Part shown: positions 43,598-64,000 of the stretch, in pieces
Layout of the letters: the number at the start of each line of letters is the position of its first letter
Position numbering within the stretch: the first letter of the stretch is position 1
NCBI GenBank assembly: GCA_000472185.1
Contig: AVDB01000005.1
Span: 124,001 to 188,000 of the forward strand
From: Rhodobacteraceae bacterium HIMB11
GTDB taxonomy: Bacteria; Pseudomonadota; Alphaproteobacteria; Rhodobacterales; Rhodobacteraceae
Direction: 5' to 3'
Length of the DNA: 64,000 bases
Made by a program: the position numbers and the translations under genes
The notes under the pieces: model-generated
The model's input: only the letters and a program-made list of their open reading frames with translations
The model's database searches: none
Told to the model about the DNA's origin: nothing

Positions 43598-43610
43598 AAG
43601 GAATGAGACC

Positions 43611-44945: not shown

Positions 44946-44963
44946 TTTCCCGCAAATGATTAA

Positions 44964-44993
44964 AGAGGGTGGCTTGCGCTGCCCTCTTTTTTT
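44964..44993 (+). terminator. Intrinsic terminator of the glnK-amtB operon
   Basis: AGAGGGTGGC (44964-44973) pairs with GCTGCCCTCT (44978-44987), with two G-T wobbles, around a TTGC loop. It is followed by a run of seven T (44987-44993). It lies 19 bases after the amtB stop and is a textbook Rho-independent terminator. Confidence 0.88.
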
Positions 44994-45026
44994 GTCTCAT
45001 CTAAACCTCGGTTTAGGTGGAAGAGT

Positions 45027-45377: not shown

Positions 45378-45380
45378 GGC

Positions 45381-46388: not shown

Positions 46389-46505
46389 AGATTTCAGTCC
46401 CCAGGTGCGAAATGTTACAGATTCGTGACGTTGACTTCGCTTAGCATGGCATTACCGTGAGGCAAAGCAAACAAAGGCGCGACTGCCTCAAAAGGATATC
46501 AAAAT

Positions 46506-47105
46506 ATGCCAAAAATCGATTATTTTTTCACACCCTTGTCGCCGTACACCTATTTGGCGGGAGGTGCGTTGGAAAATATCGCGGAAAAAGTGCACGCCTC
46601 GATACATTATCGTCCCTTGGACGTGGTTTCACTATTCGGGCACACAGGCGGTGTTGCCTTGCCTGATCGGCATCCGTCCCGGCTTGATTATCGTGCACAG
46701 GATCTAACGCGTCGCGCAGCGATGTTGGATATGCCATTTCATTTGAAGCCTGCGCATGTGCCCACCAATCCCGCGCCTGCATCCTATGCAATCATCGCGG
46801 CGCAAAACGTTGGTGGTGGTGATTTAGGGGGGCTGGTCCAGGGAATTTTGCGCGCAGCATGGGCCGAGGAAAAGGACATTTCCGATGATGCCGTGCTACA
46901 GGATCTGTTGGTGGCCAATGGATTTGATCGCACATTGACGATGTCTGGAATGCTAAGCGGGGCTGAAACATACGCGCAAAACCTTGAGCACGCAGTGTCA
47001 CATGGGGTTTTCGGCGCGCCATTCTATGTGCTAGAGGACGGCGCAAAATTCTGGGGTCAGGACCGACTTGGGGATCTTGAGGCATATCTAACCAAAGGCA
47101 GCTAA
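46506..47105 (+). CDS. 2-hydroxychromene-2-carboxylate isomerase-like (DsbA-fold) protein
   Basis: This 199-residue protein has the thioredoxin-like DsbA/GST-kappa fold of 2-hydroxychromene-2-carboxylate isomerases. It starts DYFFTPLSPYTYLAGGALEN, where the usual Ser/Cys catalytic position is Ser, and ends FGAPFYVLEDGAKFWGQDRL. These enzymes isomerise an intermediate of naphthalene degradation using glutathione, but most roseobacter members lie outside such pathways, so the substrate is open. The next gene, a hydrolase, starts one base after its stop, so they are cotranscribed. Confidence 0.85.
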   Translation: MPKIDYFFTPLSPYTYLAGGALENIAEKVHASIHYRPLDVVSLFGHTGGVALPDRHPSRLDYRAQDLTRRAAMLDMPFHLKPAHVPTNPAPASYAIIAAQNVGGGDLGGLVQGILRAAWAEEKDISDDAVLQDLLVANGFDRTLTMSGMLSGAETYAQNLEHAVSHGVFGAPFYVLEDGAKFWGQDRLGDLEAYLTKGS

Positions 47106-47106
47106 A

Positions 47107-47919
47107 GTGACAAAAGATACACGCGCAGGTTTGTCCATCAATCACATGGTGTTGGGCGATGGGAACGAACGCGCCTTGATGATGCATTGTACCCTGTCGT
47201 CGGCACGTGCGATGGCGCCAATGGCAATGGCGTTTGAAAATCGCTTCACGACGACCGCCTTTGATCTTCCAGGTCATGGTCAAAGTAGCGATTGGGATTT
47301 CAATGGTGATTTGCAGGATCGTGTCACAGAAGTCGCCCAAAGCTTTATCGACGGACCGGTCCATTTGATTGGGCATTCCTTTGGCGCGACCGTTGCACTG
47401 CGATTGATGTCCCAGATGCCAGAGCGCATCAAATCCGTGGTTTTGTTCGAACCTGTGTTTGTCGAAGCGGCCTTTCAACGTACGCCAAAACTGCGGGCAG
47501 CATACGAGGCAGAGGCGCAAGATTTTGTCGAGGCAATCAAAAGCAAAGATAAAGCGCGCGCAACAATCGAGTTTTTGAAAATGTGGGGCGATGGCACCCC
47601 ATGGGAGGTGATCCCCCCAAATTTACGCCAATCTATGATTGATAAAATTGATGTGGTTGATGCGGGAACACCCGCGCTGCATCAGGATACACATGGGTTG
47701 CTGGAGCCCACGGGTTTGGCGAATTACAAGGGACCTGCCTTGTTTATTCGTGGCGCGCGCAGCATTCCAATCATGCAAGATATTCACATTGCATTGGTCG
47801 AATTGATGCCACAAGCCAGCGATCACGCGATTGATGGGGCGGGTCATATGGTGCCAATGACCCATCAGGCGGAATGTGTTGCGCTGATGCAGGAATTTTA
47901 CCAAAAATCAGGATTTTGA
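47107..47919 (+). CDS. Alpha/beta hydrolase
   Basis: This 270-residue alpha/beta-hydrolase has the nucleophile elbow GHSFGATVAL near residue 95, an oxyanion region around MMHCTLSSARAM, and a terminal GAGHMVPMTHQAE with the catalytic His. The start is GTG at 47107, one base after the preceding stop. Pairing with a DsbA-fold isomerase suggests both act on one small-molecule pathway, but the substrate is not evident. It converges with plsY, overlapping by 12 bases. Confidence 0.87.
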   Translation: MTKDTRAGLSINHMVLGDGNERALMMHCTLSSARAMAPMAMAFENRFTTTAFDLPGHGQSSDWDFNGDLQDRVTEVAQSFIDGPVHLIGHSFGATVALRLMSQMPERIKSVVLFEPVFVEAAFQRTPKLRAAYEAEAQDFVEAIKSKDKARATIEFLKMWGDGTPWEVIPPNLRQSMIDKIDVVDAGTPALHQDTHGLLEPTGLANYKGPALFIRGARSIPIMQDIHIALVELMPQASDHAIDGAGHMVPMTHQAECVALMQEFYQKSGF

Positions 47920-48528
47920 TGCACCAATCTTGGGTTCGGTTCCCGCGATAATGCGCGAAATATTCGCACTATGGCGACAAAAAATTAATAGCGCCAGCGC
48001 AGCGGCCAAACCCGAAATTGATGAATACCCAAGCAGTGCCGCCCAAATTGGCGCCAAAGCCGCGGCAACCAATGCCGATAGCGATGAAATGCGCAATGCG
48101 AATGCGGTCACAAGCCAAGTCAGACATGCGGCAATCCCAACGGGCCATGCAATCGCCAGTAATATCCCCAAAAACGTTGCCACACCCTTGCCCCCCTGAA
48201 ACCGAAGCCAGACCGGAAAACAGTGGCCTGCGAATGCAGCGAGCGCGGCGAGTTGTGCGGCATCGGCTGCGGCAAATGCCATGGCAATCAAAACGGCCAC
48301 GGCACCTTTTCCACCATCAAGGATTAGGGTGGCCGCCGCTGCGAATTTATTTCCCGTGCGCAAAACATTTGTGGCGCCAATGTTACCCGACCCAATTTTT
48401 CGCAGATCGCCAAGTCCCATAAGGCCCGAGATCAGAACCCCAAAAGGGATAGAGCCAAGCAGATACCCAATTACGCCCCATTGCGCGATGATCACGAAGG
48501 ATGATGTAAATTCGGGTAGGATGCTCAT
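47908..48528 (-). CDS. plsY: Acyl-phosphate glycerol-3-phosphate acyltransferase
   Basis: PlsY transfers an acyl group from acyl-phosphate to glycerol-3-phosphate, the first step of phospholipid synthesis, in the inner membrane. The 206-residue protein has the three family motifs: SIPFGVLISGLMGLGDLRKI, with the following GSGNIGATNVLR, then FQGGKGVATFLG. It has about five membrane segments. Its ATG overlaps the pyrC' stop by four bases, so it is the last gene of pyrB-pyrC'-plsY. Confidence 0.95.
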   Translation of the reverse strand: MSILPEFTSSFVIIAQWGVIGYLLGSIPFGVLISGLMGLGDLRKIGSGNIGATNVLRTGNKFAAAATLILDGGKGAVAVLIAMAFAAADAAQLAALAAFAGHCFPVWLRFQGGKGVATFLGILLAIAWPVGIAACLTWLVTAFALRISSLSALVAAALAPIWAALLGYSSISGLAAALALLIFCRHSANISRIIAGTEPKIGASKS

Positions 48529-49784
48529 GCGCGGTAAACCTCTTGTCCGCCAACGAATGTGCGCAGTACTTTGCCCTGTAGACGCGCCTCATCGAATGGC
48601 GTGTTCTTTGACTTTGAATGCAGGTTTTCGCGGTTCAATACATACGGAACATCTGCATCGAATAACATCAAATCGGCAGGGGAACCGATGTCAATGCGCC
48701 CTGAATTCAAACCCAACCGCTTGGCTGGGTTATAGGACGCGGCCTTGAAAATTTGGTTCAAGGATAGATGCCCAGAATGGTACAGGCGTAGCACCGCGGG
48801 TAAAAACGTTTCCAGACCAACTGCACCTGACGCTGCTGCCTCAAACGGAAGGCGTTTGCTTTCTTCGTCTTGTGGGGTGTGCTGTGAGGAAATGATATCA
48901 ATCAACCCTGTTGAAACAGCCTCCACCATCGCGATGCGATCATCTTCGCTGCGCAGGGGAGGTGTCATTTTGAAAAAGCTGCGGTAATCCGCAATGTCGA
49001 ATTCATTTAAGGTCAGGTGATGAATTGATGTTCCCGCGGTAATGTTTAGGCCGTTCTTTTTCGCGCGTTCCAGCGCGGGCAATGCGCGTGCTGTGGTGAT
49101 TTGATCCGCGTGATAGGCCGCGCCTGTCATTTCAATCATCGAAATGTCACGGTCCAATCCCATGCGTTCGGCCATGGGTGACACATGGGGTAATCCGCGA
49201 AGGGAGGCAAACTTGCCACTGGTTGCAACGCCGCCATCTGACAGGATGGGTTCCTGTGGGTGGGCAATGATCAATGCGCCCAGGGATTTTGCGTAAACCA
49301 TTGCACGGGCCAACACTTTGGTATTTTGCACGACGCGATAGCCATCTGAAAACGCAATTGCGCCTGCATCCTGCAAAAATCCTATTTCCGTCATTTCACG
49401 ACCCGCGCGCCCCTTGGTTAGGGCCGCGATGTGTAACACATTCACGGGCGCAACCTCGGCTGCGCGTCGGCGAATGAATTCCAACGCTTCAGGGGTATCA
49501 ATCGCAGGGTCCGTATCGGCGCGGGTGACAATTGTCGTTACACCCCCTGCTGCTGCTGCCGCACCTGCGGTTTTATAGCTTTCTTTGTGACGTTCACCCG
49601 GTTCGCAAACCTTGACGCCGATATCCACGATGCCCGGCGCAAGGTATTTGCCAGAACAATCAATAACGGTTTCCGCTTTACCTGATGGATCAACAATCAT
49701 TCCGTCGCGAACCATTAGATCGTTGGTTATAACGTCCGCTGTTGTGGGATCAATGATTTGGGCGTTCTTGAATAGGATGCTCAT
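48525..49784 (-). CDS. pyrC: Dihydroorotase-like protein (PyrC'-type), probably catalytically inactive
   Basis: The 419-residue protein has the overall dihydroorotase sequence, including [29 protein letters not shown] and [12 protein letters not shown]. The metal ligands are changed. The HxH of the usual HVHLREPG reads GVK, with Cys replacing the substrate Arg. The Asn of the MPNT region is missing, and the catalytic Asp of TDHAPH is replaced in SSQHTPQ. In Pseudomonas a similar inactive PyrC' is needed structurally by aspartate carbamoyltransferase, and the tight pyrB link here suggests the same. A working dihydroorotase should be encoded elsewhere. Overlaps of four bases at both ends tie it to pyrB and plsY. 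Confidence 0.88.
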
Positions 49785-50728
49785 GTCACAACGCCCCTTT
49801 GATTTTTCATGTTACGCGCCAACAGGTGCATTGCAGCCATGCGAACGGCCACGCCCATTTCGACCTGCTCTTGAATAACGGAACGGTTGATGTCGTCGGC
49901 AATTTCGCCGTCGATTTCAACACCACGGTTCATAGGGCCTGGGTGCATCACGATTGCATCGGGTTTTGCAAAACCCAATTTTGCGCGATCCAGCCCATAG
50001 CGGTGGTAATATTCTCGTTCAGATGGGATAAACCCACCATCCATACGCTCTTTTTGCAGGCGTAGCATCATCACGACATCAACGTCCTGCAGCCCATCTT
50101 CCATGTCGTGGTAAACCTCGACACCCAATTCGGCCACATCAGGTGGCATCAGCGTTACTGGCCCAACCAGCCGCACGCGGTTTTCCGTTTTTCCCAGAAG
50201 GATCAAATTTGAACGCGCGACGCGCGAATGAACGATGTCGCCACAAATCGCGATATTCAGACGATGCAGACGTCCCTTGGCACGCATGATCGTCAACGCA
50301 TCTAACAGGGCCTGTGTGGGGTGTTCGTGTCGCCCATCACCTGCATTCAACACTGCGCAGTTCACCTTTTGCGCCAGAAGATCAACCGCCCCAGATTGGG
50401 GGTGGCGCACGACCAACAAATCGGGATGCATGGCATTTAATGTCAGTGCCGTATCAATCAGGGTTTCGCCCTTTTTGATCGAACTGGCCTGCATGGCCAT
50501 ATTCATCACAACCGCGCCCAGCCGTTTCCCAGCCAATTCAAAACTGGCCTGCGTGCGGGTGGAGTTTTCAAAAAACATGTTGATTTGCGTTAATCCAGCA
50601 AGCGTGGGGTCAGGCCGCTCGGCTTTGCGGTTTTGCTCTACATAGGCGTTGGCAAGATCCAATATCTCTGTGATGGCCTCTGGTCTTAGCGGCTCAATCC
50701 CCAAGAGGTGTTGACTGGTAAAGCTCAT
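49781..50728 (-). CDS. pyrB: Aspartate carbamoyltransferase catalytic chain
   Basis: PyrB joins carbamoyl phosphate and aspartate in the first committed step of pyrimidine synthesis. The 315-residue protein has the carbamoyl-phosphate motif [20 protein letters not shown] near residue 55, [20 protein letters not shown] and [14 protein letters not shown] chose the ATG at 50728 since family homology begins at [13 protein letters not shown]; an upstream in-frame ATG adds 18 unrelated residues. It overlaps the dihydroorotase-like gene by four bases. No pyrI regulatory subunit is visible. Confidence 0.95.
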
Positions 50729-50824
50729 GTTTGCCCTCACATTTGGTAGTTGGGACTTACACATAAGCGCGATTTGGCACAAGGGGTGCTTTTCCTTTCG
50801 ATATGGCCAAGCTAGTTTAAGACC

Positions 50825-51601
50825 ATGGAATCGCAGTTAGATTGGCATCAGGCCAAGGCATTACTTGAATGGCAAATTGAACTGGGCGCGTCCGAGGCGA
50901 TCTTGGACGCGCCTGTGAATAGGTTTGAATTGACCGATAAGGCCCCTGCCAAAGAGCCAGCCAAGGCCCAAAAACAAACACCTGCCCCGCGTGTCGAAGA
51001 GGTTGATCCCGTTGCGGTTGCCGAAATGGCAGCAGCTGGGGCGCAGGATTTGGCCGGTTTAAAACAGGCCATGGCGCAGTTTGAACATTGTCAGTTGAAA
51101 CGCGGTGCACGGCAATTGGTCTTTGCCGATGGAAACCCAGATGCCAAAATCATGATTGTGGGGGAAGGCCCAGGTCGTGACGAGGATATGGAGGGGCGTC
51201 CATTTGTTGGTCGCGCTGGACAATTGTTGGATCGGATGTTTGCAGCGATTGGATTGTCCCGTACGTCCGATGTTGCAGGCACCAGCATTTATATCACTAA
51301 TGTTGTGCCGTGGCGTCCGCCACAAAACCGCGACCCAAGCCCGATTGAAATTGACATGATGCTCCCTTTTTTGCGGCGGCATATTGCACTGGCCAAGCCT
51401 GAAAGAATTGTCGCGATGGGGAACATTTCCTGTCAGGCGCTATTGGGAAAACGCGGTGTTACCAAACTTCGCGGACAATGGGCAACAGGATGTGGTGTTG
51501 ACGTTATGCCGATGTTCCACCCCGCATATTTGTTACGCAATCCGTTGGCCAAACGCGAAGCGTGGCAGGATTTGCAAGCCGTTCAAAAGAGGATCAGATA
51601 G
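50825..51601 (+). CDS. Uracil-DNA glycosylase, family 4-like, lacking Fe-S cysteines
   Basis: The 258-residue protein excises uracil from DNA. Residues 1-85 form an Ala/Pro/Lys-rich extension. The core has the water-activating motif [40 protein letters not shown] and the uracil-binding [16 protein letters not shown]. In typical family 4 enzymes four cysteines bind a 4Fe-4S cluster. Here the segments read [16 protein letters not shown] and EIDMMLPFL, so three of the four are absent, and the chain has only three cysteines in total. moaB starts five bases after the stop. Confidence 0.9.
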
Positions 51602-51605
51602 ACCC

Positions 51606-52148
51606 GTGTCACGAATTGATGAAAGCAAAGAATTCATTGCAACGCGCATCGCCGTTTTAACCGTGTCAGATACGCGGCAATTGGATGAGGATAAGTCTGG
51701 TCAAACCTTGGTGGATCGTTTGGAACGCGCTGGGCATACATTGGTTGACCGCAAAATCATCGCGGATGAACGTAATCAAATTGCGGACCAACTGCGCGTG
51801 TGGATCGCTAATCCAGATGTTGACGTGGTGATTTCCACGGGCGGCACGGGCCTGACGGGGCGTGATGTAACCGTTGAGGCACACCGCGATGTGTACGAAA
51901 AAGAGATTGATGCATTCGGAACAGTGTTCACCATCGTGAGTATGCAAAAAATTGGCACCTCGGCCATTCAATCGCGCGCAACTGCAGGCGTGGCAGGGGG
52001 GACATATCTATTTGCGCTACCGGGATCACCCGGTGCATGTCGTGATGCGTGGGACGAAATTTTGGAAAAACAATTAGATTTTCGCCATCGCCCCTGCAAC
52101 TTTGTCGAAATAATGCCGCGGTTGGATGAACATTTGCGACGGAAGTAA
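51606..52148 (+). CDS. moaB: Molybdenum cofactor biosynthesis protein B
   Basis: MoaB belongs to the MoaB/MogA family that binds molybdopterin and adenylates it before molybdenum insertion. The 180-residue protein has RIAVLTVSDTRQLDEDKSGQ near the start, the molybdopterin-binding STGGTGLTGRDVTVEAHRDV near residue 78, and FALPGSPGACRDAWDEIL. I chose the GTG at 51606, with the family starting SRIDESKEFIATRIAVLTVS; the frame is open upstream but lies inside the glycosylase gene. A functional link with the fdhD formate dehydrogenase factor at the window end is plausible. Confidence 0.92.
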   Translation: MSRIDESKEFIATRIAVLTVSDTRQLDEDKSGQTLVDRLERAGHTLVDRKIIADERNQIADQLRVWIANPDVDVVISTGGTGLTGRDVTVEAHRDVYEKEIDAFGTVFTIVSMQKIGTSAIQSRATAGVAGGTYLFALPGSPGACRDAWDEILEKQLDFRHRPCNFVEIMPRLDEHLRRK

Positions 52149-52243
52149 ATTTTGGAACGTTCAATATTTGTGCGCATGTGACAAACTGATCTTTTCGCCT
52201 ATTTCATGCGTATGAACTACGATTACACTAAAGGACTAAATCT

Positions 52244-53701
52244 ATGCGTTTTCTTCGTCAGGCTTTAATCGGGCTGGTCCTGATGTCCATGGCTTTGGGT
52301 CTTTTGGGATATGCAGGGTATCTGGGCTATGAAACCTATAAAGAGGTCCAATCGCGTGAGGCGCGGGTTCCCCAAGCCCGCGAACGTGTGTTTACCGTCA
52401 ACGTGCGGGCCGCAGAGCCGCAAACCATCACACCGTATTTAACCGCATTTGGTGAGGTTCAAAGCCGCCGTACATTGGATCTTCGCATGGCGGCAGGTGG
52501 CCAGATTGTTGAGATTTCGCCAAACTTCGCAGAAGGTGGGGTCGTGGAACAGGGCGAAATTTTGATACGCCTTGATGATGCTGATGCGCAATCCGCGCTT
52601 TTGCGCACCGAATCCGATTTAAGTGATGCGAAATTGGAAATCGTCGAGGCCGAACGTGCGATTGCCTTGGCCAAAGATGAGTTGGCTGCCGCGGTCGAGC
52701 AAGAAGCCCTTCGAAGCGCTGCGTTGTTGCGTCAACAAGATTTGCAGCAACGGGGTGTGGGCACCACCGCCTCGGTCGAGGCGGCAGAGCTGGCCCTATC
52801 TTCAGCAAAACAATCTGTTCTGTCGCGTCGCAGTGGTTTGGATCAATCAAACGCCCGTTTCAATCAGGCAAAAACGCGTCTCGCCCGTGCCGAATTGGCA
52901 AACAAAGATGCACATCGTCATCTGAATGACACGGTGATGCGTGCGGAATTTGCGGGCGTCCTAAGCGGTGTCAGTTTGGTCCAAGGCGGTTTGATCAGCG
53001 CGAATGAGCGTGTCGGTCAGTTGATTGACCCAAGCGCGATTGAGGTCGCATTTCGCGTATCCACCCAACAATATGCGCGCCTGCTGAACGAGGATGGAAG
53101 CCTAATTGCTGCGCCTGCTGATGTGTCCTTGGATGCGATTGGTGGATCTGTGACATCCAAGGCCGTGCTGTCGCGCGACAGCGGATCGGTGGCAGATGGT
53201 CAAACAGGGCGTGTATTGTTTGCGAGATTGGATAATGCGATTGGCCTGAAACCCGGTGATTTCGTATCTGTGAAAGTCGAAGAACCAGCATTGCGTTTTG
53301 TCGTTGAATTGCCTGCAACAGCCTTGAATGCACAGAACGAAGTGCTGGCCGTGGGCGAAGGCGACCGGCTTGAAATAATCAACGTGACCCTGATGCGACG
53401 TCAGGCGAATAACGTTTTGGTGCGATCACGCGATTTGCCAGGGCGGGATATTGTCACGCAGCAAACGCCCCTGTTGGGCAAAGGCATCAAGGTCAAAGTC
53501 CTGCGTGAGGGTGGTTCGATGGAACCCGAGGCGCCCAAAATGGTCAAACTGACCAAGGAAAAACAAGAAGAACTGATCAAGCGGGTCGAGGGCAATCAAT
53601 GGATCCCTGCAAAACCCAAAGAGCGTTTGTTAAAACAACTGCGCAGCGGCGAAATCAAAGCGGAAACATTGAAACGACTTGAGAGCAGAGGAGGCGGCTG
53701 A
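52244..53701 (+). CDS. RND efflux periplasmic adaptor subunit with C-terminal extension
   Basis: This 485-residue membrane-fusion protein links an RND pump to an outer-membrane channel. It has an N-terminal membrane anchor (about residues 5-27) and the lipoyl part GQIVEISPNFAEGGVVEQGE. A long alpha-hairpin follows (about 120-210), then the beta-barrel and membrane-proximal domains. About 60 residues beyond the usual end are charged and helical (LTKEKQEELIKRVEGNQWIP onward), unlike standard adaptors of 350-400 residues. It overlaps the pump gene by one base (TGATG). No outer-membrane factor gene is nearby. Confidence 0.9.
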   Translation: MRFLRQALIGLVLMSMALGLLGYAGYLGYETYKEVQSREARVPQARERVFTVNVRAAEPQTITPYLTAFGEVQSRRTLDLRMAAGGQIVEISPNFAEGGVVEQGEILIRLDDADAQSALLRTESDLSDAKLEIVEAERAIALAKDELAAAVEQEALRSAALLRQQDLQQRGVGTTASVEAAELALSSAKQSVLSRRSGLDQSNARFNQAKTRLARAELANKDAHRHLNDTVMRAEFAGVLSGVSLVQGGLISANERVGQLIDPSAIEVAFRVSTQQYARLLNEDGSLIAAPADVSLDAIGGSVTSKAVLSRDSGSVADGQTGRVLFARLDNAIGLKPGDFVSVKVEEPALRFVVELPATALNAQNEVLAVGEGDRLEIINVTLMRRQANNVLVRSRDLPGRDIVTQQTPLLGKGIKVKVLREGGSMEPEAPKMVKLTKEKQEELIKRVEGNQWIPAKPKERLLKQLRSGEIKAETLKRLESRGGG

Positions 53702-56700
53702 TGGTACGCGATCTTCCCGACAGTGCAGGCGGCATCCTCTCTTATTTCACGCGCCACAAAACGCTTGCGAACCTATTGTTGGTCGTGCTGCTTATGGCAG
53801 GTGCCGTGGCGCTTCCAAAAATGCGGGCACAGTTTTTCCCAGATGTGGTTGTTGACTCGATCAATATCTCGGTTGCGTGGAATGGCGCAGGTGCAGAGGA
53901 CGTGGATCAAGGCATCGTAAAGGTTTTGGAACCTGCCTTATTGGCGGTCGAAGGCGTGTCCAGTGCCAGTAGCCGATCAACCGAAGGGCGCGCCCGCATA
54001 TCGTTAGAGTTTGACCCCGATTGGGATATGTCCCGCGCCAATGCGGATGTTGAAACGGCACTTGATGGTATTTCAACATTGCCAGATGACGCTGAAGACC
54101 CCGTAATTTTGCGCGGCAGTTGGAGCGATCGTGTGACCGAAGTCGTGATTTCAGGTCCCATTGGTGTGACGCAATTGGGCCTGATCGCGGATGAATTTGC
54201 ACTGCGATTGTTCAACGCAGGTGTGACCAAAACTTCGATCCAAGGCATCGCTGCGCCACAAGTTGTGATTGAAGTTCCGACCGCGAAATTGGTTGCAGAA
54301 GACATCACAATGCGCCAGATCGCCAATGCCATTGCAGAAGAGGTCAGTGCAGATCCAGCGGGGGACGTGTTGGGGTCCAACATGCGTGTGCGCACAGGTG
54401 TTGAAAAACGCTCTGCCGAGGATATCGCGGGAATTGTTCTTCGCTCAAACGGGGACGGCTCAAAACTCACCATCGGCGATGTTGCCCTGCTGCGCGATGA
54501 AGGGATCGACAGGCTGCGCAGCTTTTATGTGGGCGACAATCAGGCGATCACATTGCGTGTGGATCGTTCTGCCGCAGGGGACGCCATTGCCATCCAAGAG
54601 GTGGTCGAAGAAGAGGCTGCGAAATTGGAACGCACGTTGCCGCAGGGCACAACAATTGAACTCATCCGCACGCGCGCAGATGCCATTTCAGGTCGTCTGA
54701 ACCTGCTGTTGAAAAATGGCGCGACTGGTCTGTTGTTGGTGGTTGTGTTGTTGTTTTTGTTCCTAAACGCCAAAACGGCGTTTTGGGTCGCGGCGGGTAT
54801 TCCGACTGCGATGTTTACGGCGATTGCACTGATGTACGTGGCGGGCATTACGTTCAACATGATTTCGCTGTTCGCGTTGATCCTAACACTGGGGATTATT
54901 GTCGATGATGCCATTGTTGTGGGGGAACATGCCGATTTCCGTGCGCGTCGCGGGTTGCCGCCGATGTTGGCCGCCGAAACCGCGGCGAAACGGATGGCGC
55001 TGCCCGTTTTCGCAGCCTCATTAACAACAATCATTGCCTTCTTTGGCCTAACTGCAATCAGCGGGCGTTTTGGCAGTTTGATTGCGGATATCCCATTCAC
55101 TGTGATTGCCGTTTTGATTGCATCCTTGGTTGAATGTTTCCTAATCCTTCCAAATCACATGGCGCATTCGATTTCTGTGGGTGACGGTGTGAAATGGTAT
55201 GACCTGCCCAGCCATTATTTCAACAAAGGCTTCCGCTGGTTCCGCGATACAATTTTCCGCCGTTTCATCCGTCTGGTGATTACGATGCGCTACGTCATGC
55301 TGTCGGGTGCCATCGCGTTATTGATTTCGCAAATCGTGATGATTTGGAGTGGAGCAGTATCATGGCGCTTTATCAACTTTCCCGAACAATCTTCGGTCAC
55401 AGGCAATTTTGCGATGGTCAATTCCGCCAGCCGTGAAGACACCATGGCGATGATGAAACTACTGCAAGACAGCGTTGATGAAGTCGCCGCATCCTATGAT
55501 AAGGAACACGGCAAAAGCCCGATTGATTACGTTCTAACGCAAGTGGGTGGCAACACAGGGCGCGGATTATCAGGTGTCGAAAACAAATCAACGGACCTGT
55601 TGGGCGGGATCAACATCGAATTGATTGATGCGGATTTGCGCCCCTATTCTAGTTACGCCTTTGTTGCGGACCTACAGGATCAGTTAAAGCGCCATCCGCT
55701 GTTGGAAACATTTTCATTCCGCAGCTGGCGCGGTGGTCCAGGTGGCGATTCATTAGATGTACAATTCTATGGAAAAGATGCTGAAACCCTGAAATCAGCA
55801 GCAGAGGATTTGAAAACCGCTGTTGCACGTTTCCCAATCGTGTCAGCGGTTGAGGATGATTTGTCCTACGACAAAGAGGAAATGATCCTTGAACTGACAC
55901 CGCAGGGCCAAGTGTTGGGCTTTACCATTGATGGGTTGGGTGCCGTTTTGCGTGGACGATTGAACGGGATCGAAGCCGCCACATATCCCTTGGGCACGCG
56001 CAGTGCGGAATTGCGTGTCGAACTGCCAGAAGATGAACTATCGGCAGATTTCCTTGAACGAATGCAGTTGCGTTCTCCGCAGGGGGAATATGTCCCGTTG
56101 GCCGATATTGTCAGCGTCGAATTGAAAAGTGGATTTTCAACCGTGCGGCGCGAAAATGGGATACGCTTGATCTCAGTCACAGGTGACATTTCCGAGGATG
56201 ATCCCGTTGCCGCGAACGAAGTGATTGAGGCGTTGGAAAATGAAATCCTGCCTGAAATCGCATCCGAACGACAGGTGGAATGGCGCCTTGCGGGTTTGGC
56301 CGAGCAAGAAGACCAGTTCCGCACAGATGCACGCACGGGTCTAATCCTGTGTTTGACGGGCATTTATCTGGTACTTACGTGGATTTTCGCCAGCTGGACA
56401 CGACCCATAATCGTTATGGCGATCATTCCATTCGGTCTGATTGGAACGATTTGGGGGCATTATATTTGGGATATTCCAATGTCCATGTTCACTGTCATCG
56501 GCCTTTTGGGGATGACGGGGATTATTATCAATGACTCGATCGTCTTAATAACGACCATTGATGAATACGCCGAGGATCGCGGAATTATTCCGTCGTTGAT
56601 TGATGCGACGGTTGATCGGTTCCGACCCGTTTTGTTGACGACGCTGACCACTGTTTTGGGGCTTGCACCACTGCTTTATGAACGCTCCACACAGGCGCAA

Positions 56701-57087
56701 TTTTTGAAACCTACAGTTGTGACGCTGGTCTATGGATTGGGCTTTGGGATGGTTTTAGTCTTGATTGTCGTACCTTCACTGATTGCCATTCAGCAGGATG
56801 TGATGCGCTATCGTGTTTCCCTGAAACGCGCGCTCTCGTCACGCAACTCTGGGGTTCGCGTGGCGTTCATCGCAGCGGTTGTTGCAATCCTTGCATGGTT
56901 TGCGGCGACGATGGGTGTGTACATTGTGACAGGCGATTTTATCAGCTTTATCGGCGCGGCCCTCAACACGGCCCCATCGATTGGGTTGGCATTCGTGACG
57001 TTTATAGTTGGGGCGCTTGTGGTGATTATGACCCTGTTTGTGACCTCGCACTTGACGCATGCGCGGCGGCGGACAAGGGGTACTTAA
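53701..57087 (+). CDS. RND efflux transporter permease with extra C-terminal membrane segments
   Basis: This 1128-residue proton-driven efflux pump of the AcrB/HAE1-like family has the first membrane segment at LANLLLVVLLMAGAVALPKM. It also has the proton-relay region LFALILTLGIIVDDAIVVGE (the paired Asp in the fourth segment) and the second-half counterpart GLLGMTGIIINDSIVLITTI. Typical pumps have about 1030-1050 residues and twelve segments. Here about 85 residues follow the last one and contain two further hydrophobic stretches (VAFIAAVVAILAWFAATMGV and IGLAFVTFIVGALVVIMTLF). The substrate is unknown. It starts at the last base of the adaptor gene and shares TTAA with the convergent gene's stop. 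Confidence 0.93.
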   Translation: MVRDLPDSAGGILSYFTRHKTLANLLLVVLLMAGAVALPKMRAQFFPDVVVDSINISVAWNGAGAEDVDQGIVKVLEPALLAVEGVSSASSRSTEGRARISLEFDPDWDMSRANADVETALDGISTLPDDAEDPVILRGSWSDRVTEVVISGPIGVTQLGLIADEFALRLFNAGVTKTSIQGIAAPQVVIEVPTAKLVAEDITMRQIANAIAEEVSADPAGDVLGSNMRVRTGVEKRSAEDIAGIVLRSNGDGSKLTIGDVALLRDEGIDRLRSFYVGDNQAITLRVDRSAAGDAIAIQEVVEEEAAKLERTLPQGTTIELIRTRADAISGRLNLLLKNGATGLLLVVVLLFLFLNAKTAFWVAAGIPTAMFTAIALMYVAGITFNMISLFALILTLGIIVDDAIVVGEHADFRARRGLPPMLAAETAAKRMALPVFAASLTTIIAFFGLTAISGRFGSLIADIPFTVIAVLIASLVECFLILPNHMAHSISVGDGVKWYDLPSHYFNKGFRWFRDTIFRRFIRLVITMRYVMLSGAIALLISQIVMIWSGAVSWRFINFPEQSSVTGNFAMVNSASREDTMAMMKLLQDSVDEVAASYDKEHGKSPIDYVLTQVGGNTGRGLSGVENKSTDLLGGINIELIDADLRPYSSYAFVADLQDQLKRHPLLETFSFRSWRGGPGGDSLDVQFYGKDAETLKSAAEDLKTAVARFPIVSAVEDDLSYDKEEMILELTPQGQVLGFTIDGLGAVLRGRLNGIEAATYPLGTRSAELRVELPEDELSADFLERMQLRSPQGEYVPLADIVSVELKSGFSTVRRENGIRLISVTGDISEDDPVAANEVIEALENEILPEIASERQVEWRLAGLAEQEDQFRTDARTGLILCLTGIYLVLTWIFASWTRPIIVMAIIPFGLIGTIWGHYIWDIPMSMFTVIGLLGMTGIIINDSIVLITTIDEYAEDRGIIPSLIDATVDRFRPVLLTTLTTVLGLAPLLYERSTQAQFLKPTVVTLVYGLGFGMVLVLIVVPSLIAIQQDVMRYRVSLKRALSSRNSGVRVAFIAAVVAILAWFAATMGVYIVTGDFISFIGAALNTAPSIGLAFVTFIVGALVVIMTLFVTSHLTHARRRTRGT

Positions 57088-57869
57088 TCGCACCCTTTGT
57101 GTTGTGCCCAAACTCCGTCGCTTAGCAAATTGATGACAAAACGGTCGCGCGCCAGCGCGATTGTTGTGTCAACAAAAACGTCGGCTTGCATCTGTAACTT
57201 GGCATTCTTGTGTGATGTTAATCCATTATTTACCCAAACATCCGAATATGGATATTCCACAATAATCCGCGTGTTTGGGTTAAGGTTTTCAGTTCGCGCT
57301 GATATCGCGACAACAAAACCATTGGGGTCCGCCGATAAAGCACAGGTTAAGCCTTTTACTCCTAAATCATCCACACTCCATGGACCATTCGCCAATGACG
57401 CCATCAATGCGGATGGGCGCGAATTTGCCTGTGCTGGAATGTCTTGGGACAGTGTAAATGACGTTGGAATACAGATATCCTCGCATACGCCAATGTCTGC
57501 AGATAGCGAAATTTGAATATCCTGATCTGCCACCTTTGGGGATATCAACAACGGCAGTACCACCGATTTTTCATATCCTATGGTGGCAAATTCATCGCTG
57601 CCAAAAATATTCGGTGCGGGCCAATCGATGGAAATATCTTCTACGTTTTGGCTTGCGGAAAAATCAAACTGTGGGGGGAAGCCCGACGCGCCGGGGCTGC
57701 GCCAATATGTTTTCCACCCATCCTCAAGTTCCAATACCAATCCAGCGACGCGTGTGCCATCGCTGGCGATCCAACCATTCAGGATCGCGGCCGATTTAAA
57801 TCCATCCGCGAAGGCAGGTGAGGCGATAGCGGTAGTAATAAGCATGGAGCGTAGGAAACGTTTAAGCAT
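57084..57869 (-). CDS. Stand-alone DsbD N-terminal-like domain protein
   Basis: This 261-residue exported protein has the signal MLKRFLRSMLITTAIASPAF and a beta-rich domain resembling the N-terminal (DsbD-alpha) domain of thiol:disulfide interchange protein DsbD. Its redox-type cysteines are in VCEDICIPTSFTLS. The membrane and thioredoxin domains of DsbD are absent, so a separate partner must supply electrons. It may help reduce periplasmic cysteines, for example in cytochrome c maturation, but this is inferred. The start chosen is the ATG at 57869, which begins the signal peptide. It converges with the RND pump gene and is divergent from yqgE. Confidence 0.82.
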   Translation of the reverse strand: MLKRFLRSMLITTAIASPAFADGFKSAAILNGWIASDGTRVAGLVLELEDGWKTYWRSPGASGFPPQFDFSASQNVEDISIDWPAPNIFGSDEFATIGYEKSVVLPLLISPKVADQDIQISLSADIGVCEDICIPTSFTLSQDIPAQANSRPSALMASLANGPWSVDDLGVKGLTCALSADPNGFVVAISARTENLNPNTRIIVEYPYSDVWVNNGLTSHKNAKLQMQADVFVDTTIALARDRFVINLLSDGVWAQHKGCD

Positions 57870-57945
57870 GTTTCTTTGTGCGAAAAAAATACTAACTTGC
57901 CAAGTCACAATCTGGCGATAGGCTAGTGATCAGGAGTGAGTGAAA

Positions 57946-58527
57946 ATGAATACCGATCCCAGTTCCCTAAATAGCCGATCTTTGTCAGGGCAATTTTTGA
58001 TTGCGATGCCTGGAATGGGGGATCCGCGGTTTGACAAATCGTTAATTTTTCTATGCGATCACACTGAAGAGGGGGCGATGGGTTTGATCGTGAATAAACC
58101 CATCATCGAAACGGATTTTGCCGAGATTTGTGATTTCTTGGATATTGACTGCCCACAAGAAAGGGATGTTCCCGTTTTATATGGTGGCCCCGTGGATACC
58201 CAAAAAGGGTTGGTTTTGCATTCACCTGAATTTCACACAACCAAGTCAAACGAACTATCCTCGAGTGCCTATAGCCTAACTGGAACGCGCGATGTGATTG
58301 AAGCGATGGCACAAGGTGTCGGGCCAAAATCCGCCTTTCTTGCGATGGGATACGCGGGCTGGGGCGCGGGACAATTGGAACAAGAGCTTAAACAAAACGC
58401 ATGGCTTGTTGGGACCTGTGATCATGATCTGATTTTTGGGGATGATCACGATGTGAAATGGGAAATGGCCCTGATGCAGGCGGGCGTTGATCCGCGATTA
58501 TTGATGCCCTCGGTCGGGCATGCCTAG
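57946..58527 (+). CDS. YqgE/AlgH family protein (UPF0301)
   Basis: This 193-residue protein belongs to the YqgE/AlgH family. It has LSGQFLIAMPGMGDPRFDKS at the start, LIFLCDHTEEGAMGLIVNKP and YGGPVDTQKGLVLHS, then AFLAMGYAGWGAGQLEQELK. The family is widespread and has been called a transcriptional regulator (AlgH), but its biochemical function is unsettled. The ATG at 57946 has GGAG nine bases upstream; a GTG at 57940 is too close to that site. It shares CTAG with the convergent threonylcarbamoyl-AMP synthase gene, giving a stop on both strands. Confidence 0.92.
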   Translation: MNTDPSSLNSRSLSGQFLIAMPGMGDPRFDKSLIFLCDHTEEGAMGLIVNKPIIETDFAEICDFLDIDCPQERDVPVLYGGPVDTQKGLVLHSPEFHTTKSNELSSSAYSLTGTRDVIEAMAQGVGPKSAFLAMGYAGWGAGQLEQELKQNAWLVGTCDHDLIFGDDHDVKWEMALMQAGVDPRLLMPSVGHA

Positions 58528-59465
58528 CTTCTTGGCGCCGCGGCGCGTGTTAAACGATCATTGATTGCAATACCAAGGCCACGGTTGGGAATGGGTGCAA
58601 CGGCGATTTTCGAGCCCGCACGTGCATCTAACTCATGTAGCATTGAAAATAGGTTTGCCGTTGCTTCGCGCAAGTCGGCAGTGGGCGATAGGTTTACGTC
58701 GCCCTTTATATTTCCAAAACCCAGTGATTTTTCATCGGCCCCAAATTCGGTTGCGTTTAAACGCACGGATGCGTTGGGGGCATAGTGAGAGGTGAGCTGC
58801 CCTGGTGCTGTGATAGTATCCACATCTGTCAATGTTTTGATGCCTGTCCCAAGAACAGTTTGGATGTCTTCGATTGTAATGTTTCCGGGGCGCAAGATCA
58901 CTGGATCATCCAATAGGCTGATGATTGTGGATTCAACACCCATCTCGCACGCTCCTCCATCAACCACCGCATTAATGCGCCCATCTAATCCCGCAATCAC
59001 ATGATCCACGGTTGTTGGGCTGATCTTACCCGAGGGGTTGGCCGAGGGAGCGGCCACAGGACGCCCCAGTTTTGACAGCAGCGTCTGTGCAACGGGATGG
59101 GCGGGCACACGAATGGCAACCGATGGTAAACCCGCACGTGCCAGTTGTGAAATCGCACAGTCCTGCCTTGCAGGCAGGATCAATGTCATGGGGCCGGGCC
59201 AAAACGCATAGGACAATCTTTCAGCCGCCTCAGACCACTCCACATAATCGCGCGCCATTACGGGGGATACCATATGGCTGATCAGGGGATTAAAGCTTGG
59301 CCTACCCTTGGCTTCGTAAATTTTGGTAACGGCCTGATCGCTTAGGGCATCTGCCCCCAATCCATACACCGTTTCCGTTGGTATCGCCACAAGTCCCCCA
59401 TCCGCCAAAATTTGCGCGGCCTGTTCGATGTCGTGATGCAATGATCCAAACTGTTGTGTTTTCAT
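58524..59465 (-). CDS. tsaC: L-threonylcarbamoyladenylate synthase (Sua5/YrdC family)
   Basis: This 313-residue enzyme makes threonylcarbamoyl-AMP from threonine, bicarbonate and ATP, the first step of t6A modification of tRNAs that read ANN codons. The YrdC domain (1-200) has VAIPTETVYGLGADAL, YEAKGRPSFNPLISH and PSANPSGKISPTTVDHVIAG. The C-terminal Sua5 domain (from about 210) begins after LRPGNITIEDIQTVLGTGI. This is the longer Sua5 type, so the symbol tsaC is used broadly. It is divergent from the acyl-CoA dehydrogenase gene. Confidence 0.93.
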   Translation of the reverse strand: MKTQQFGSLHHDIEQAAQILADGGLVAIPTETVYGLGADALSDQAVTKIYEAKGRPSFNPLISHMVSPVMARDYVEWSEAAERLSYAFWPGPMTLILPARQDCAISQLARAGLPSVAIRVPAHPVAQTLLSKLGRPVAAPSANPSGKISPTTVDHVIAGLDGRINAVVDGGACEMGVESTIISLLDDPVILRPGNITIEDIQTVLGTGIKTLTDVDTITAPGQLTSHYAPNASVRLNATEFGADEKSLGFGNIKGDVNLSPTADLREATANLFSMLHELDARAGSKIAVAPIPNRGLGIAINDRLTRAAAPRS

Positions 59466-59552
59466 GGGTATGACGCTGCGTTTAGGTTGCCCGATCTATT
59501 AGCGGCATCTTATCCATATGACCAGCCCACAGACCATAATGAGGTTGATCAG

Positions 59553-61274
59553 ATGCCGTTTCGTGCGCCCGTTTCTGAATACGAATTTATGCTTCGCCAT
59601 GTCGTCGATTATGACAAAGTCGCCGCAACAACAAAGTTCCAAGATGCTGGATTGGATGTTGTTGATGCCATTCTGAATGAGGCTGGCAAGATGTGTAATG
59701 AGGTTATGGCACCCGTTCAGCGCAACGGAGATTTGCATCCTGCCGTGTTGGAAAATGGTGTTGTACGCACCTCCCTTGGATTTGCCGAAGCATATGGCGC
59801 GATCGCATCGGGTGGATGGATTTCAACCTCGGCTGATCCTGAATATGGTGGCATGGGGCTTCCGATGACGGTCACGACAGCGGTCAATGAAATGATGTCT
59901 GCTGCATGTTTGTCCCTGCAACTGGCGCCATTGATGACACAAGGACAGATCGAAGCGCTTGAGGCACATGCAGATGCGCAGATAAAAGCGCTGTATCTGC
60001 CGAAACTGATTTCGGGTGAATGGACGGGTACCATGAACCTGACCGAACCGCAGGCGGGATCAGATGTTGGCGCGCTTAGTTCCAAGGCGGTTGATAATGG
60101 AGATGGGACTTACGCGATCACGGGACAAAAGATTTATATTTCCTGGGGAGACAACGATTTTACGGAAAACGTCTGTCATCTTGTTTTGGCGCGCCTCCCG
60201 GATGGACCCAAAGGGACCAAGGGTATTTCACTGTTCCTCGTGCCCAAGCGGATCCCAGATGCAGATGGCAAACCAGGTGTGGCCAATACACTTAAGGTTG
60301 TCAGCCTAGAACACAAAATGGGCCTTCATGGGTCCCCAACAGCGGTCATGCAATATGACGGTGCAACGGGTTGGTTGATCGGCGAACCGCACGACGGCAT
60401 GCGCGCAATGTTCACGATGATGAATAACGCACGATTGGGTGTTGGCGGGCAGGGCATCGGTGCGGCTGAAGGCGCGTTTCAACACGCCTATGCCTATGCC
60501 GAGGGACGTAAACAAGGGCGCAGCCCGATTGCCGATGGCACGGGGACCATATTGGACCATGCTGACGTGCGGCGTATGCTTGCGACGATGAAGGCGGAAA
60601 TTTTTGCGGCCCGCGCGATTGCGTTGGCCAATGCTGCGGCAATCGATCTTGGGCACGCAACGGGGTCTGCCGAGTGGTCCGCACGTGCTGCATTTTTGAC
60701 GCCCATTACCAAGGCCTTTGGTACCGACATCGGGAATGAGGTGGCCCATATCGGTGTTCAGGTGCATGGCGGCATGGGATATGTCGAAGAAACAGGTGCA
60801 GCACAATATGCCCGCGATGTGCGCGTCACCGCGATTTACGAAGGCACCAATGGAATTCAAGCGATGGATTTGGTTGCACGGAAATTGGTGGATGGGGGCG
60901 ATGCTGCCTATGCGCTTTTGGATGAAATGCAGGCCACCATCGAAGCCGCGCGTGATAAAATGTCTGATATCGCAGAACCTGTTTGGCAATCCTTGGAAAG
61001 CCTGCGTGAAGCAACCGATTGGATGTTGAAACAATCTGACTTGAATGACCGATTTGCAGGTGCGCAGCCGTTCCTGCGTGCTTGGGCACGTGTTTTGGGG
61101 GCCTATTTCCATCTGCGCGCCAGCTTGGCCGAGGGTGGCCAAGGTCCGCGCACGAAATTGGCGCGGTTCTACGTCGGTCGTTTGCTTCCTGAACATATCG
61201 GGTTGCTCCATGCCGCGCGTCAGGGGGCCGAGGATATTTATGCATTTTCCCCTGAAGAATTGTTGGCGGGCTGA
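59553..61274 (+). CDS. Acyl-CoA dehydrogenase with C-terminal extension domain
   Basis: This 573-residue flavoenzyme oxidises an acyl-CoA to the 2-enoyl-CoA. It has the FAD/substrate region MNLTEPQAGSDVGALSSKAV, ITGQKIYISWGDNDFTENVC, and the IYEGTNGIQAMDLVARKLVD motif preceding the additional C-terminal helical domain. Relatives of this long type include DmdC, which acts on methylmercaptopropionyl-CoA in DMSP breakdown, but ordinary fatty-acyl substrates are equally possible. I chose the ATG at 59553, where homology begins (MPFRAPVSEYEFMLRHVVDY), preceded by AATGAGG. The MBL hydrolase follows two bases after the stop and is probably cotranscribed. Confidence 0.92.
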   Translation: MPFRAPVSEYEFMLRHVVDYDKVAATTKFQDAGLDVVDAILNEAGKMCNEVMAPVQRNGDLHPAVLENGVVRTSLGFAEAYGAIASGGWISTSADPEYGGMGLPMTVTTAVNEMMSAACLSLQLAPLMTQGQIEALEAHADAQIKALYLPKLISGEWTGTMNLTEPQAGSDVGALSSKAVDNGDGTYAITGQKIYISWGDNDFTENVCHLVLARLPDGPKGTKGISLFLVPKRIPDADGKPGVANTLKVVSLEHKMGLHGSPTAVMQYDGATGWLIGEPHDGMRAMFTMMNNARLGVGGQGIGAAEGAFQHAYAYAEGRKQGRSPIADGTGTILDHADVRRMLATMKAEIFAARAIALANAAAIDLGHATGSAEWSARAAFLTPITKAFGTDIGNEVAHIGVQVHGGMGYVEETGAAQYARDVRVTAIYEGTNGIQAMDLVARKLVDGGDAAYALLDEMQATIEAARDKMSDIAEPVWQSLESLREATDWMLKQSDLNDRFAGAQPFLRAWARVLGAYFHLRASLAEGGQGPRTKLARFYVGRLLPEHIGLLHAARQGAEDIYAFSPEELLAG

Positions 61275-61276
61275 TC

Positions 61277-62314
61277 ATGGACGGCACACAACCCCTTGAA
61301 TATCCCTGGCCAGAGCCGCCCGAATTTGGGCGTGCCATTGAAATTGCGCAGGGTATCTTGTGGATACGCCTGCCCCTGCCAATGGCATTGGATCACGTGA
61401 ATATCTATGCCCTGGATGACGGGGATGGATGGACCATTGTTGACACGGGCATGGGATCGAACAAAACGCGCGGTTTATGGCGGGATTTGATGGCGCGTGA
61501 ATTGGGTGGGCGACCAATCACGCGTGTTATTTTAACCCATCATCATCCAGATCACGTTGGATTGGCAGGCTGGTTTAAATCCGAATATGGCGCAGAAATC
61601 TGGGCCACGCGCACCGCTTGGTTAATGGCGCGTATGCTGACCCTAGACGTGCAGGAATTGCCGACATCCGAAACGCTGGATTTTTGGCGCAAGGCAGGCA
61701 TGGATCCTGTGGAATTGGACAAACGGGCCAAGGGAAAACCATTTAATTTCGCCGATACTGTTCATCCAATCCCACTTGGGTTTCATCGTATCAAGGAAGG
61801 TGACGAAATCACCATGGGCGGTCGAACTTGGGATATTCGTATTGGCAATGGACACGCACCAGAGCATGCAACGTTTTGGTGTCAGGATGATGATATCGTC
61901 ATATCAGGCGATCAGATCATATCGGCCATTAGCCCGAATTTAGGGGTCTATGCGACAGAGCCAGACGCCGATCCAGTAGGCGAATGGTTAGAAGCCTGTG
62001 AAAGGTTGAACCAACTTTCAAAGTCAACGCATTTGGTTCTGGCGGGGCACAAATTACCATTTTTGGGTTTGCCGCACCGTATGCAGCAATTGATCGAAAA
62101 TCATCACCACGCATTGGATCGCTTGGTTGAATATATCGCGGAACCCAAATGCGCGACTGACTGTTTTCCTGCCCTGTTCAAGCGCAAAATTGGGGAAGGG
62201 GAATATGGACTTGCCTTGGTCGAATCTGTTGCGCACCTGAACCACCTTTATTTGGCAAGACGTGCAGAGCGTGTGTTAGATCAAAGTGGCGCATATCTAT
62301 ATCGCGCAATTTAG
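61277..62314 (+). CDS. MBL-fold metallo-hydrolase
   Basis: This 345-residue metallo-beta-lactamase-fold hydrolase has the metal motif ILTHHHPDHVGLAGWF near residue 86. Further ligand regions are GNGHAPEHATFWC and VISGDQIISAISPN, and a final His is in LAGHKLPFLG. The C-terminal part (about 250-345) resembles the DNA-binding-like winged tail common in this subgroup. The substrate is unknown. Its position two bases after the acyl-CoA dehydrogenase suggests action on a thioester or a product of that pathway, an inference from context. Confidence 0.9.
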   Translation: MDGTQPLEYPWPEPPEFGRAIEIAQGILWIRLPLPMALDHVNIYALDDGDGWTIVDTGMGSNKTRGLWRDLMARELGGRPITRVILTHHHPDHVGLAGWFKSEYGAEIWATRTAWLMARMLTLDVQELPTSETLDFWRKAGMDPVELDKRAKGKPFNFADTVHPIPLGFHRIKEGDEITMGGRTWDIRIGNGHAPEHATFWCQDDDIVISGDQIISAISPNLGVYATEPDADPVGEWLEACERLNQLSKSTHLVLAGHKLPFLGLPHRMQQLIENHHHALDRLVEYIAEPKCATDCFPALFKRKIGEGEYGLALVESVAHLNHLYLARRAERVLDQSGAYLYRAI

Positions 62315-62402
62315 GGTGGGACAAATCACTGCACCCAAAGCACGTGACACTTGAAACTGAATCAGCTAAATAGCGAAAAAAGCATGTAAGAGGGTCTTAA
62401 AA

Positions 62403-62537
62403 ATGGCTGAACATAAACACGGGTCTATGGACACCAAAGTCCAAGAGGAAACATTCAACGGCTTTATCAGCTGGACAGTGAAAATCTCACTTCTTAGCAT
62501 CGGCATCCTTGTCTTTATGGCATTGGTCAACAGCTAA
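62403..62537 (+). CDS. aa3-type cytochrome c oxidase subunit IV, 44 aa
   Basis: This small gene encodes 44 residues, starting MAEHKHGSMDTKVQEETFNG and continuing into a single membrane helix, FISWTVKISLLSIGILVFMA. That is the pattern of the alphaproteobacterial aa3-type oxidase subunit IV (pfam07835), a peptide of the respiratory cytochrome c oxidase. The other oxidase genes are not in the window. A GAGGG element 12 bases before the ATG at 62403 can serve as ribosome-binding site. The decayed lipoprotein gene follows 14 bases after the stop. Confidence 0.85.
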   Translation: MAEHKHGSMDTKVQEETFNGFISWTVKISLLSIGILVFMALVNS

Positions 62538-62551
62538 TAAAACGTTTGGGG

Positions 62552-63169
62552 ATGCGTTTTGTGGCGATTGCGCTGGTGTCCGCGCTGGCGCTGAATGGAT
62601 GTATAAAAGAAACCGCACATTACGCATCTGATAAAATGGTGCGGGACGTGGCCTATGTACATGATGGCCCCCCGCGTATCTCTCTCTACACAATGGTAAA
62701 TAATGAAAGCGGGGCAGGGGCGCACTCTGCTTTGGTGATTAATGCATCCCAGCGTGTGATATTTGATCCTGCGGGAACCATCAAACACGACGTTTTCATT
62801 GAACAGGACGATGTCCTGTATGGGGCGACGCCCAGCGTGCTGGAATTTTATACACGCGCACATGCCCGCAAAACTCACCATGTCGTCATTTAGGATTTGG
62901 ATGTCAGTCCTGAAATCGCAGAACGCGCGCTGTAACTGGTGCGCGCGAATGGTCCTGTGACATCCGCATTTTGTGCCAGCGCCAGCTCTGCAATCTTGCG
63001 CCAAATCCTTGGATTTGAAGGAATTGGTCAGACCATGTTCCCAAATCGGTTGGCCGCCGATTTCGCAAAAATCAGGGGCGTTCGTGAACAAAAATTATAT
63101 GAATACGACGATGCCGACAAACGCGTCGCGTTAGAGGCCTATGACCCAAATAGGATCAAGCAAAAATAG
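62552..63169 (+). pseudogene. Lipoprotein gene interrupted by two in-frame stop codons
   Basis: The frame from ATG 62552 to 63169 is continuous (206 codons) except for TAG at 62891-62893 and TAA at 62933-62935. Both stops lie inside otherwise clean coding sequence: KTHHVVI-stop-DLDVSPEIAERAL-stop-LVRANGPVTSAFC. The product has a lipoprotein signal ending ALNGC and a conserved body (HSALVINASQRVIFDPAGTI; FCASASSAILRQILGFEGIG) that I recall as an uncharacterised Rhodobacteraceae family. In relatives the first stop position holds Gln, so a CAG-to-TAG change fits; the second fits CAA-to-TAA. The ends are intact, suggesting recent inactivation. Confidence 0.8.
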
Positions 63170-63236: not shown

Positions 63237-64000
63237 ATGGCAGCTGCGGACTGGGATGGATATTTGATCGCGCCAAATGCGACGGGGGATGGCGTGACGC
63301 GTCAAATCCTTGGAACAGATCATGAAGGCAACACACAGACCATTCGCGTGATCGAAGAGCGCCCCTTGACCATCTATCTAAATTCCCAGGAAATCGTAAC
63401 GGCCATGACAATTGGGGATTACCCTGAATACCTTGCCGTTGGGTTTTTGCGCAATCAAGGGATGCTGAACCCGAGCGAGACGATCACGGGCATCAGCTAT
63501 GATAATGAACTTGAAACAATTGTGGTGCGCACCGAAACGCAAACGAATTATGAAGAAAAACTGAAAAAGAAAACGCGCACCAGCGGGTGTGCCGTTGGCA
63601 CTGTTTTTGGTGATATGATGGAGGGGTTAGAAGACCTCAAACTCCCCTCGCAATCTGTCAAAACGTCATGGTTATATACGCTTGCCTCACGCATTAATCG
63701 GACGCCTTCCCTGTATCTTGAGGCGGGGGCAATCCATGGAACGGTCCTGTGTGAACAGGATCGTCCGCTGGTTTATATGGAGGATGTGGGGCGCCACAAC
63801 GCGGTGGATAAGATCGCGGGTTGGATGATGCGGAACGATGTCAGTGGGGGGGATAAAATCCTGTATACCACAGGTCGCCTCACGTCCGAGATGGTGATTA
63901 AAACCGCACAGATGGGCATTCCCGTTTTGGCCTCTCGCTCGGGGTTTACCGCATGGGGTGTTGAGATTGCCGAACAGGTGGGGATGACCTTGATCGGTCG
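63237..64000 (+). CDS. fdhD: Formate dehydrogenase accessory sulfurtransferase FdhD, 3' end cut by window edge
   Basis: FdhD moves sulfur from IscS to the molybdenum cofactor so that formate dehydrogenase becomes active. The frame is open from ATG 63237, with GGGAGG six bases upstream, to the window end. It gives 254 residues of an expected 270-280. The sulfur-carrying Cys118 is in RTSGCAVGTVFG, where many relatives have a CxxC pair and this group keeps one. Other motifs are VYMEDVGRHNAVDKIAGW and TTGRLTSEMVIKTAQMGIPV, then LASRSGFT. Formate produced by the AdhC-FghA pathway would be the substrate of the enzyme it activates. Confidence 0.94.
   Translation, partial: MAAADWDGYLIAPNATGDGVTRQILGTDHEGNTQTIRVIEERPLTIYLNSQEIVTAMTIGDYPEYLAVGFLRNQGMLNPSETITGISYDNELETIVVRTETQTNYEEKLKKKTRTSGCAVGTVFGDMMEGLEDLKLPSQSVKTSWLYTLASRINRTPSLYLEAGAIHGTVLCEQDRPLVYMEDVGRHNAVDKIAGWMMRNDVSGGDKILYTTGRLTSEMVIKTAQMGIPVLASRSGFTAWGVEIAEQVGMTLIG

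Follow-up and report, generated by a model that had tools for sequence, protein, structure and literature searches.

The window, a stretch of 64,000 nucleotides from contig AVDB01000005.1 of Rhodobacteraceae bacterium HIMB11, very probably carries a gene for an envelope lipoprotein that was inactivated only recently; for intact relatives of the protein, a permuted NlpC/P60 (YiiX-like) fold is predicted. We put the probability of this reading at roughly 0.88. The frame contains two internal stops, and translation would presumably end at the first of them, at codon 114. The resulting fragment of 113 residues would keep the predicted catalytic His and lack the catalytic Cys, which suggests that the enzyme is inactive. 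The window gene looks like an ordinary recent nonsense pseudogene that calls for no new mechanism, and its genus seems to be losing the gene repeatedly. The feature had been picked out in an earlier note on this DNA; it is real, and that first reading was mostly right.

The interrupted lipoprotein frame

The frame runs on the forward strand from an ATG at 62552 to its own TAG at 63167–63169 and comprises 205 codons plus the stop. It was compared with the copies of three congeners, taken as JAAEZW010000048.1 (G001), JAFMKS010000068.1 (G002), and JAKMGV010000012.1 (G003), so that the genus sample consisted of four genomes, the window's own included. Residue counts refer to 59 relatives with 52 distinct sequences; these are mostly best matches, and the sample therefore leans to intact copies. 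The main features of the frame are the following:

62552..63169, forward strand: interrupted lipoprotein gene; predicted fold of intact relatives: permuted NlpC/P60 (YiiX-like)
62552..62602, forward strand: signal peptide with lipobox LNGC, Cys17 being its last residue; Cys17 in 59/59 relatives
62891..62893, forward strand: first internal stop, TAG, codon 114; CAG in 3/3 congeners, Gln in 57/58 aligned relatives
62933..62935, forward strand: second internal stop, TAA, codon 128; CAA in G001 and G003, TAA in G002, Gln in 24/58 relatives

We take the LNGC motif to be a lipobox. Codon 15 encodes Asn in the window, Ser in G001 and G003, and Cys in G002, and none of the 59 relatives has Asn at this position. 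The genome that carries the window is a draft of 3.10 Mb in 34 contigs with an estimated completeness of 99.85%, in which the lipoprotein locus is single-copy. Its nearest named relatives are Rhodobacteraceae metagenome assemblies.

The earlier note had claimed that a TAG at 62891 and a TAA at 62933 interrupt one conserved frame without a frameshift. Both stops were indeed found in the same frame, as codons 114 and 128, which are separated by exactly 13 sense codons, and the window copy has no frameshift. The conservation of the frame is likewise real. With X at the stops, its protein was matched at E ≤ 0.001 in 337 of 394 family genomes, an even sample of a larger group with the window's own among them, and the closest congener copy is 95% identical. 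Both stops also fit the proposed origin by C-to-T changes of Gln codons, given the CAG of all three congeners at codon 114 and the CAA of two of them at codon 128. Gln as the ancestral residue was borne out by the relatives to different degrees: it is near-invariant at codon 114 and only one of several residues at codon 128, where G002 itself has TAA. What stands of the claim of two stops in one gene is thus the fit to recent C-to-T changes without frameshift; as a double event private to the window it does not hold, because the TAA also occurs in G002.

Predicted fold and active site

Sequence searches returned little for this protein. The window protein had no Pfam family at E ≤ 1 and no NCBIfam match, six relatives gave only chance-level Pfam matches to other families (E of 0.043 or worse), and a PDB sequence search with the profile of the relatives produced just two matches, at E of 0.43 and 1. 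Six relatives were modelled with AlphaFold, among them the intact L035, for which the mean pLDDT was 82.5 and the pTM 0.78. Foldseek retrieved nothing at E ≤ 0.001 with the L035 model. When 996 chains pre-ranked by Foldseek were aligned to this model with VIA-align, TseH (6v98) scored a Z of 9.3, YiiX (2if6) a Z of 8.1, and the next row 3.0. Models that lack a clear match often reach a best Z of 7–8; we trusted the fold match because of the wide gap in Z to the next rows and the order of His, acidic residue, and Cys. The model of the intact relative is therefore predicted to come closest to the permuted NlpC/P60 (YiiX-type) fold of papain-like enzymes. L035 (positions 4001–4606 of its locus) exemplifies a widespread lipoprotein family with this predicted fold and no Pfam match above chance. 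The fold of TseH is, as we presume, permuted NlpC/P60 as well. The same fold is given for YiiX in PMC3142127. The positions that matter for the predicted active site are listed below:

62723..62725, forward strand: codon of His58, the predicted catalytic His; His in 59/59 relatives; role predicted from the fold and PMC3142127
62765..62767, forward strand: codon of Asp72, the predicted third polar residue, 14–15 residues past His58; Asp in 57/58 relatives
62972..62974, forward strand: codon of Cys141, the predicted catalytic Cys; Cys in 58/58 relatives; beyond both stops
63008..63010, forward strand: missense codon 153, past the stops; Leu in the window, Pro in 56/58 relatives and 3/3 congeners

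Judged from their sequences, the intact relatives have the catalytic order of His, polar residue, and Cys near the C-terminus, and the truncated window product would lack it. Since both stops lie upstream of Cys141, the predicted active site would be lost. The spacing of the residues is well kept: His58 and Asp72 are 14 residues apart in 52 relatives and 15 in 5, and Gln114 precedes Cys141 by 27 residues in all 57 of 57.

These spacings resemble those of BcPPNE, for which PMC3142127 gives His49, Glu64, Tyr127, and Cys154 as the catalytic set and equates the Tyr with papain Gln19. The His-to-acid distance of 14–15 residues compares with that from His49 to Glu64, and the distance of 27 between Gln114 and Cys141 is the same as between Tyr127 and Cys154. 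In contrast to BcPPNE, the family has Asp in place of Glu and, matched by spacing only, Gln in place of Tyr. In YiiX, the Tyr115 and Cys128 printed in that paper are 13 residues apart, compared with 27 here. Going only by spacing, codon 114, now the TAG, could encode a residue like Gln19 of papain.

The likeness to YaeF/YiiX-like enzymes consists in the fold of the intact relative (Z of 8.1 to 2if6) and the His-acidic-Cys order; the differences are the lack of Pfam and NCBIfam matches and of a Foldseek match at E ≤ 0.001. TseH, a type VI secretion effector, was the top fold match, with the Z of 9.3 extending over 139 residues. Unlike TseH, with which the identity is 8%, the protein has a lipoprotein signal and a conserved neighborhood beside a cytochrome-oxidase-like gene. 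The broken gene is of some value in that it belongs to a widespread lipoprotein family that had no Pfam or NCBIfam match here.

The gene in the wider family

Among the good family genomes (completeness of 90% or more, contamination of 5% or less), 301 of 347 contained a match. The other 46 had no detectable copy, which suggests that the gene is dispensable, although diverged copies could be missed. The frame is uninterrupted in 58 of the 59 sampled relatives. The exception, L037 (LFER01000045.1), has a lone internal TGA at about codon 65–66 in an otherwise open frame, which is either a separate breakage or an error. Six listed family matches were flagged with one stop and set aside, as this stop falls between aligned residues 186 and 200, where the protein naturally ends or close to it; a single match of the six terminates earlier than the others.

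Homologues were also present on 39 plasmid records, including 19 from Phaeobacter and 6 from Dinoroseobacter (e.g., NC_009955.1 and NC_009957.1); Dinoroseobacter shibae is a species with such plasmid copies. Of these records, 31 are predicted to be conjugative, and all 15 homologues listed for the 39 are annotated as hypothetical proteins.

Copies of the gene in the congeners

The copy of G003, the closest congener, is 95% identical to the window copy over codons 1–183, contains no stop, and aligned without a gap over 801 bases. It stays open as far as it is seen, its contig stopping at codon 183. In G001, one base is deleted at codon 58. G002 has lost a base at a different place, codon 57, and another near the C-terminus, and in the original register it has TAA at codons 61 and 128; this copy is more decayed than that of the window. 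At this locus, the alignment with G002 (9,435 columns) has two gap bases, both inside the gene, and that with G001 (10,110 columns) has two, one of them inside the gene. Indels relative to the congeners also occur elsewhere, with several more in the window's first 20 kb, noted irrespective of gene.

In total, the gene is broken in three of the four genus members versus 1 of the 59 relatives elsewhere (Fisher 4e-4, for a sample biased to best matches and with the end of the G003 copy unseen). The gene has probably become dispensable in this genus. We tentatively suggest, with less than even confidence, that the lipoprotein is dispensable or costly here, that it has been lost in parallel by independent lesions, and that one nonsense haplotype was passed between species by recombination. 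If the parallel loss is true, the genus forms a natural series for learning the role of the enzyme. Repeated loss within one genus provides matched intact and broken relatives in which to probe the function of the protein and the conditions under which cells can do without it.

Age and origin of the two stops

The constraint on each branch was judged from changes confined to a single copy among the four of the genus. In the window copy, most such private changes are synonymous, with 12 synonymous, 2 missense, and 1 stop (ratio of 0.10 to neutral, binomial 6e-5). Ten synonymous changes and one missense change lie before the TAG; only three changes, two synonymous and one missense, lie past it. 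G003 has 15 synonymous and 5 missense private changes (ratio 0.14, 3e-5), G001 has 5 and 4 (ratio 0.33, 0.09), and G002 has 14 and 16 plus 1 stop (ratio 0.49). Even in G002, the most damaged copy, missense changes are still slightly below neutral (binomial 0.04). For the neighboring genes, each judged mostly from three copies, the ratios were 0.09 (upstream hydrolase) and 0.06 (fdhD-like gene), and the ratio of the window lipoprotein is close to these. The cox gene has 2 to 4 private changes per genome, too few for use. Constraint over most of the window branch supports a recent inactivation, and the recent date claimed in the earlier note fits these counts.

Of the four genus copies, only that of the window has the TAG at codon 114. 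Five window-specific changes, four synonymous ones and the TAG itself, fall within 17 bases (62875–62891), possibly as a small imported tract; the clustering is weak, and 4.6% of uniform shuffles gave one as tight.

The TAA at codon 128 has a different distribution. The window agrees with G002 against G001 and G003 at 62929, 62933, and 63022, and other pairings occur at 62773 and 62809. Across 17,030 four-way sites from the window's first 20 kb, 124, 114, and 105 sites followed the three possible two-against-two patterns. These near-equal numbers indicate that the species are about equally related or that DNA has been exchanged, and they make the branching order of the genus unusable for dating the shared TAA. 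As the TAA, 62929, and 63022 are common to the window and G002, the stop at codon 128 may be inherited or imported. It probably sits on a local haplotype common to G002, by recombination or as an old polymorphism. Recurrent mutation is as possible an origin as import or an old polymorphism.

Alternative explanations for the stops

The strong constraint on the window branch, which we attribute to a recent loss, would also be expected of a gene whose stops are both decoded, through recoding or with a suppressor tRNA, to make the full protein. Before and after the stops the frame is open and conserved, its private changes are mostly synonymous, and the single internal TGA of L037 likewise lies in an otherwise open frame. 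However, two different stop codons would both need decoding, and no stop-reading anticodon was found among 35 ARAGORN-confirmed tRNA genes (37 Rfam places), a list that is incomplete in lacking Tyr and Ile tRNAs. Moreover, the gene itself ends in TAG and the preceding gene in TAA, the Pro found in 56 of 58 relatives at codon 153, past the stops, is now Leu, and the frameshifts of G001 and G002 would not be rescued by reading stops. The two different stops, the lack of a stop-reading anticodon, and Leu153 together make read-through unlikely, and we give it hardly any credence.

It is also improbable that the truncated lipoprotein of 113 residues still serves some purpose, such as binding without catalysis. 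Such a fragment would retain the signal peptide and the lipobox Cys, and the excess of synonymous over missense changes before the TAG (10 to 1) is in its favor, but Cys141 is kept in all 58 uninterrupted sampled relatives. Furthermore, none of the three congeners has the same truncation, with G001 and G002 breaking at codons 57–58, and the predicted secondary structure places the cut inside a predicted domain. A sequencing or assembly error, by which one or both stops would be absent from the organism, has a small chance of being the explanation. The genome is a draft in 34 contigs, and the five clustered changes end at the TAG. Yet four synonymous changes plus a stop are unlike random error, and the 88 comparisons of open reading frames contained no other mid-gene interruption in their aligned parts. 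The recurrence of the TAA in G002, a separate assembly, makes an error unlikely for this stop; the TAG at codon 114 may still be one.

The preferred reading, a recent nonsense pseudogene, agrees with ordinary cases of this kind in its in-frame stops compatible with C-to-T changes, its otherwise intact frame, the loss of the predicted active site, and the intact orthologues in most sampled relatives. A premature stop removes conserved residues, and the gene is intact in relatives, as in other nonsense pseudogenes. Unlike them, three of the four sampled genus members are broken here, mostly by different lesions and with one stop common to two. A literature search joining pseudogene, nonsense mutation, Rhodobacteraceae, and lipoprotein found no report, and we make no wider claim.

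Neighborhood of the gene and other interruptions

The lipoprotein gene is flanked by genes on the same strand:

61277..62314, forward strand: upstream hydrolase gene, open; relative upstream in 37/59 loci
62403..62537, forward strand: small upstream gene, 44 aa; relative upstream in 47/59 loci
63237..64000, forward strand: downstream gene, running off the window; relative downstream in 22/59 loci

Many of the 59 loci have flanks of only about 1.5 kb. We take the product of the first gene to be a metallo-beta-lactamase-fold hydrolase and that of the second to be subunit IV of an aa3-type cytochrome oxidase; the downstream gene presumably corresponds to fdhD.

Interruptions elsewhere were scanned in 88 comparisons with congener open reading frames of at least 120 aa (29, 24, and 35 per congener, some genes being counted repeatedly). 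The scan covered the aligned parts, namely approximately the first 20 kb, 42990–62988, and the region from 60554 onwards including the right flank. The lipoprotein gene was the sole mid-frame interruption among them, and its stops are thus more than a chance occurrence. Nine of the 88 comparisons were flagged; two concern the lipoprotein gene, and the other seven fall at five places. At these five places, judged from the flagged comparisons with G003, no stop is farther in than aligned residue 20, and we took the stops to reflect an upstream extension of the start.
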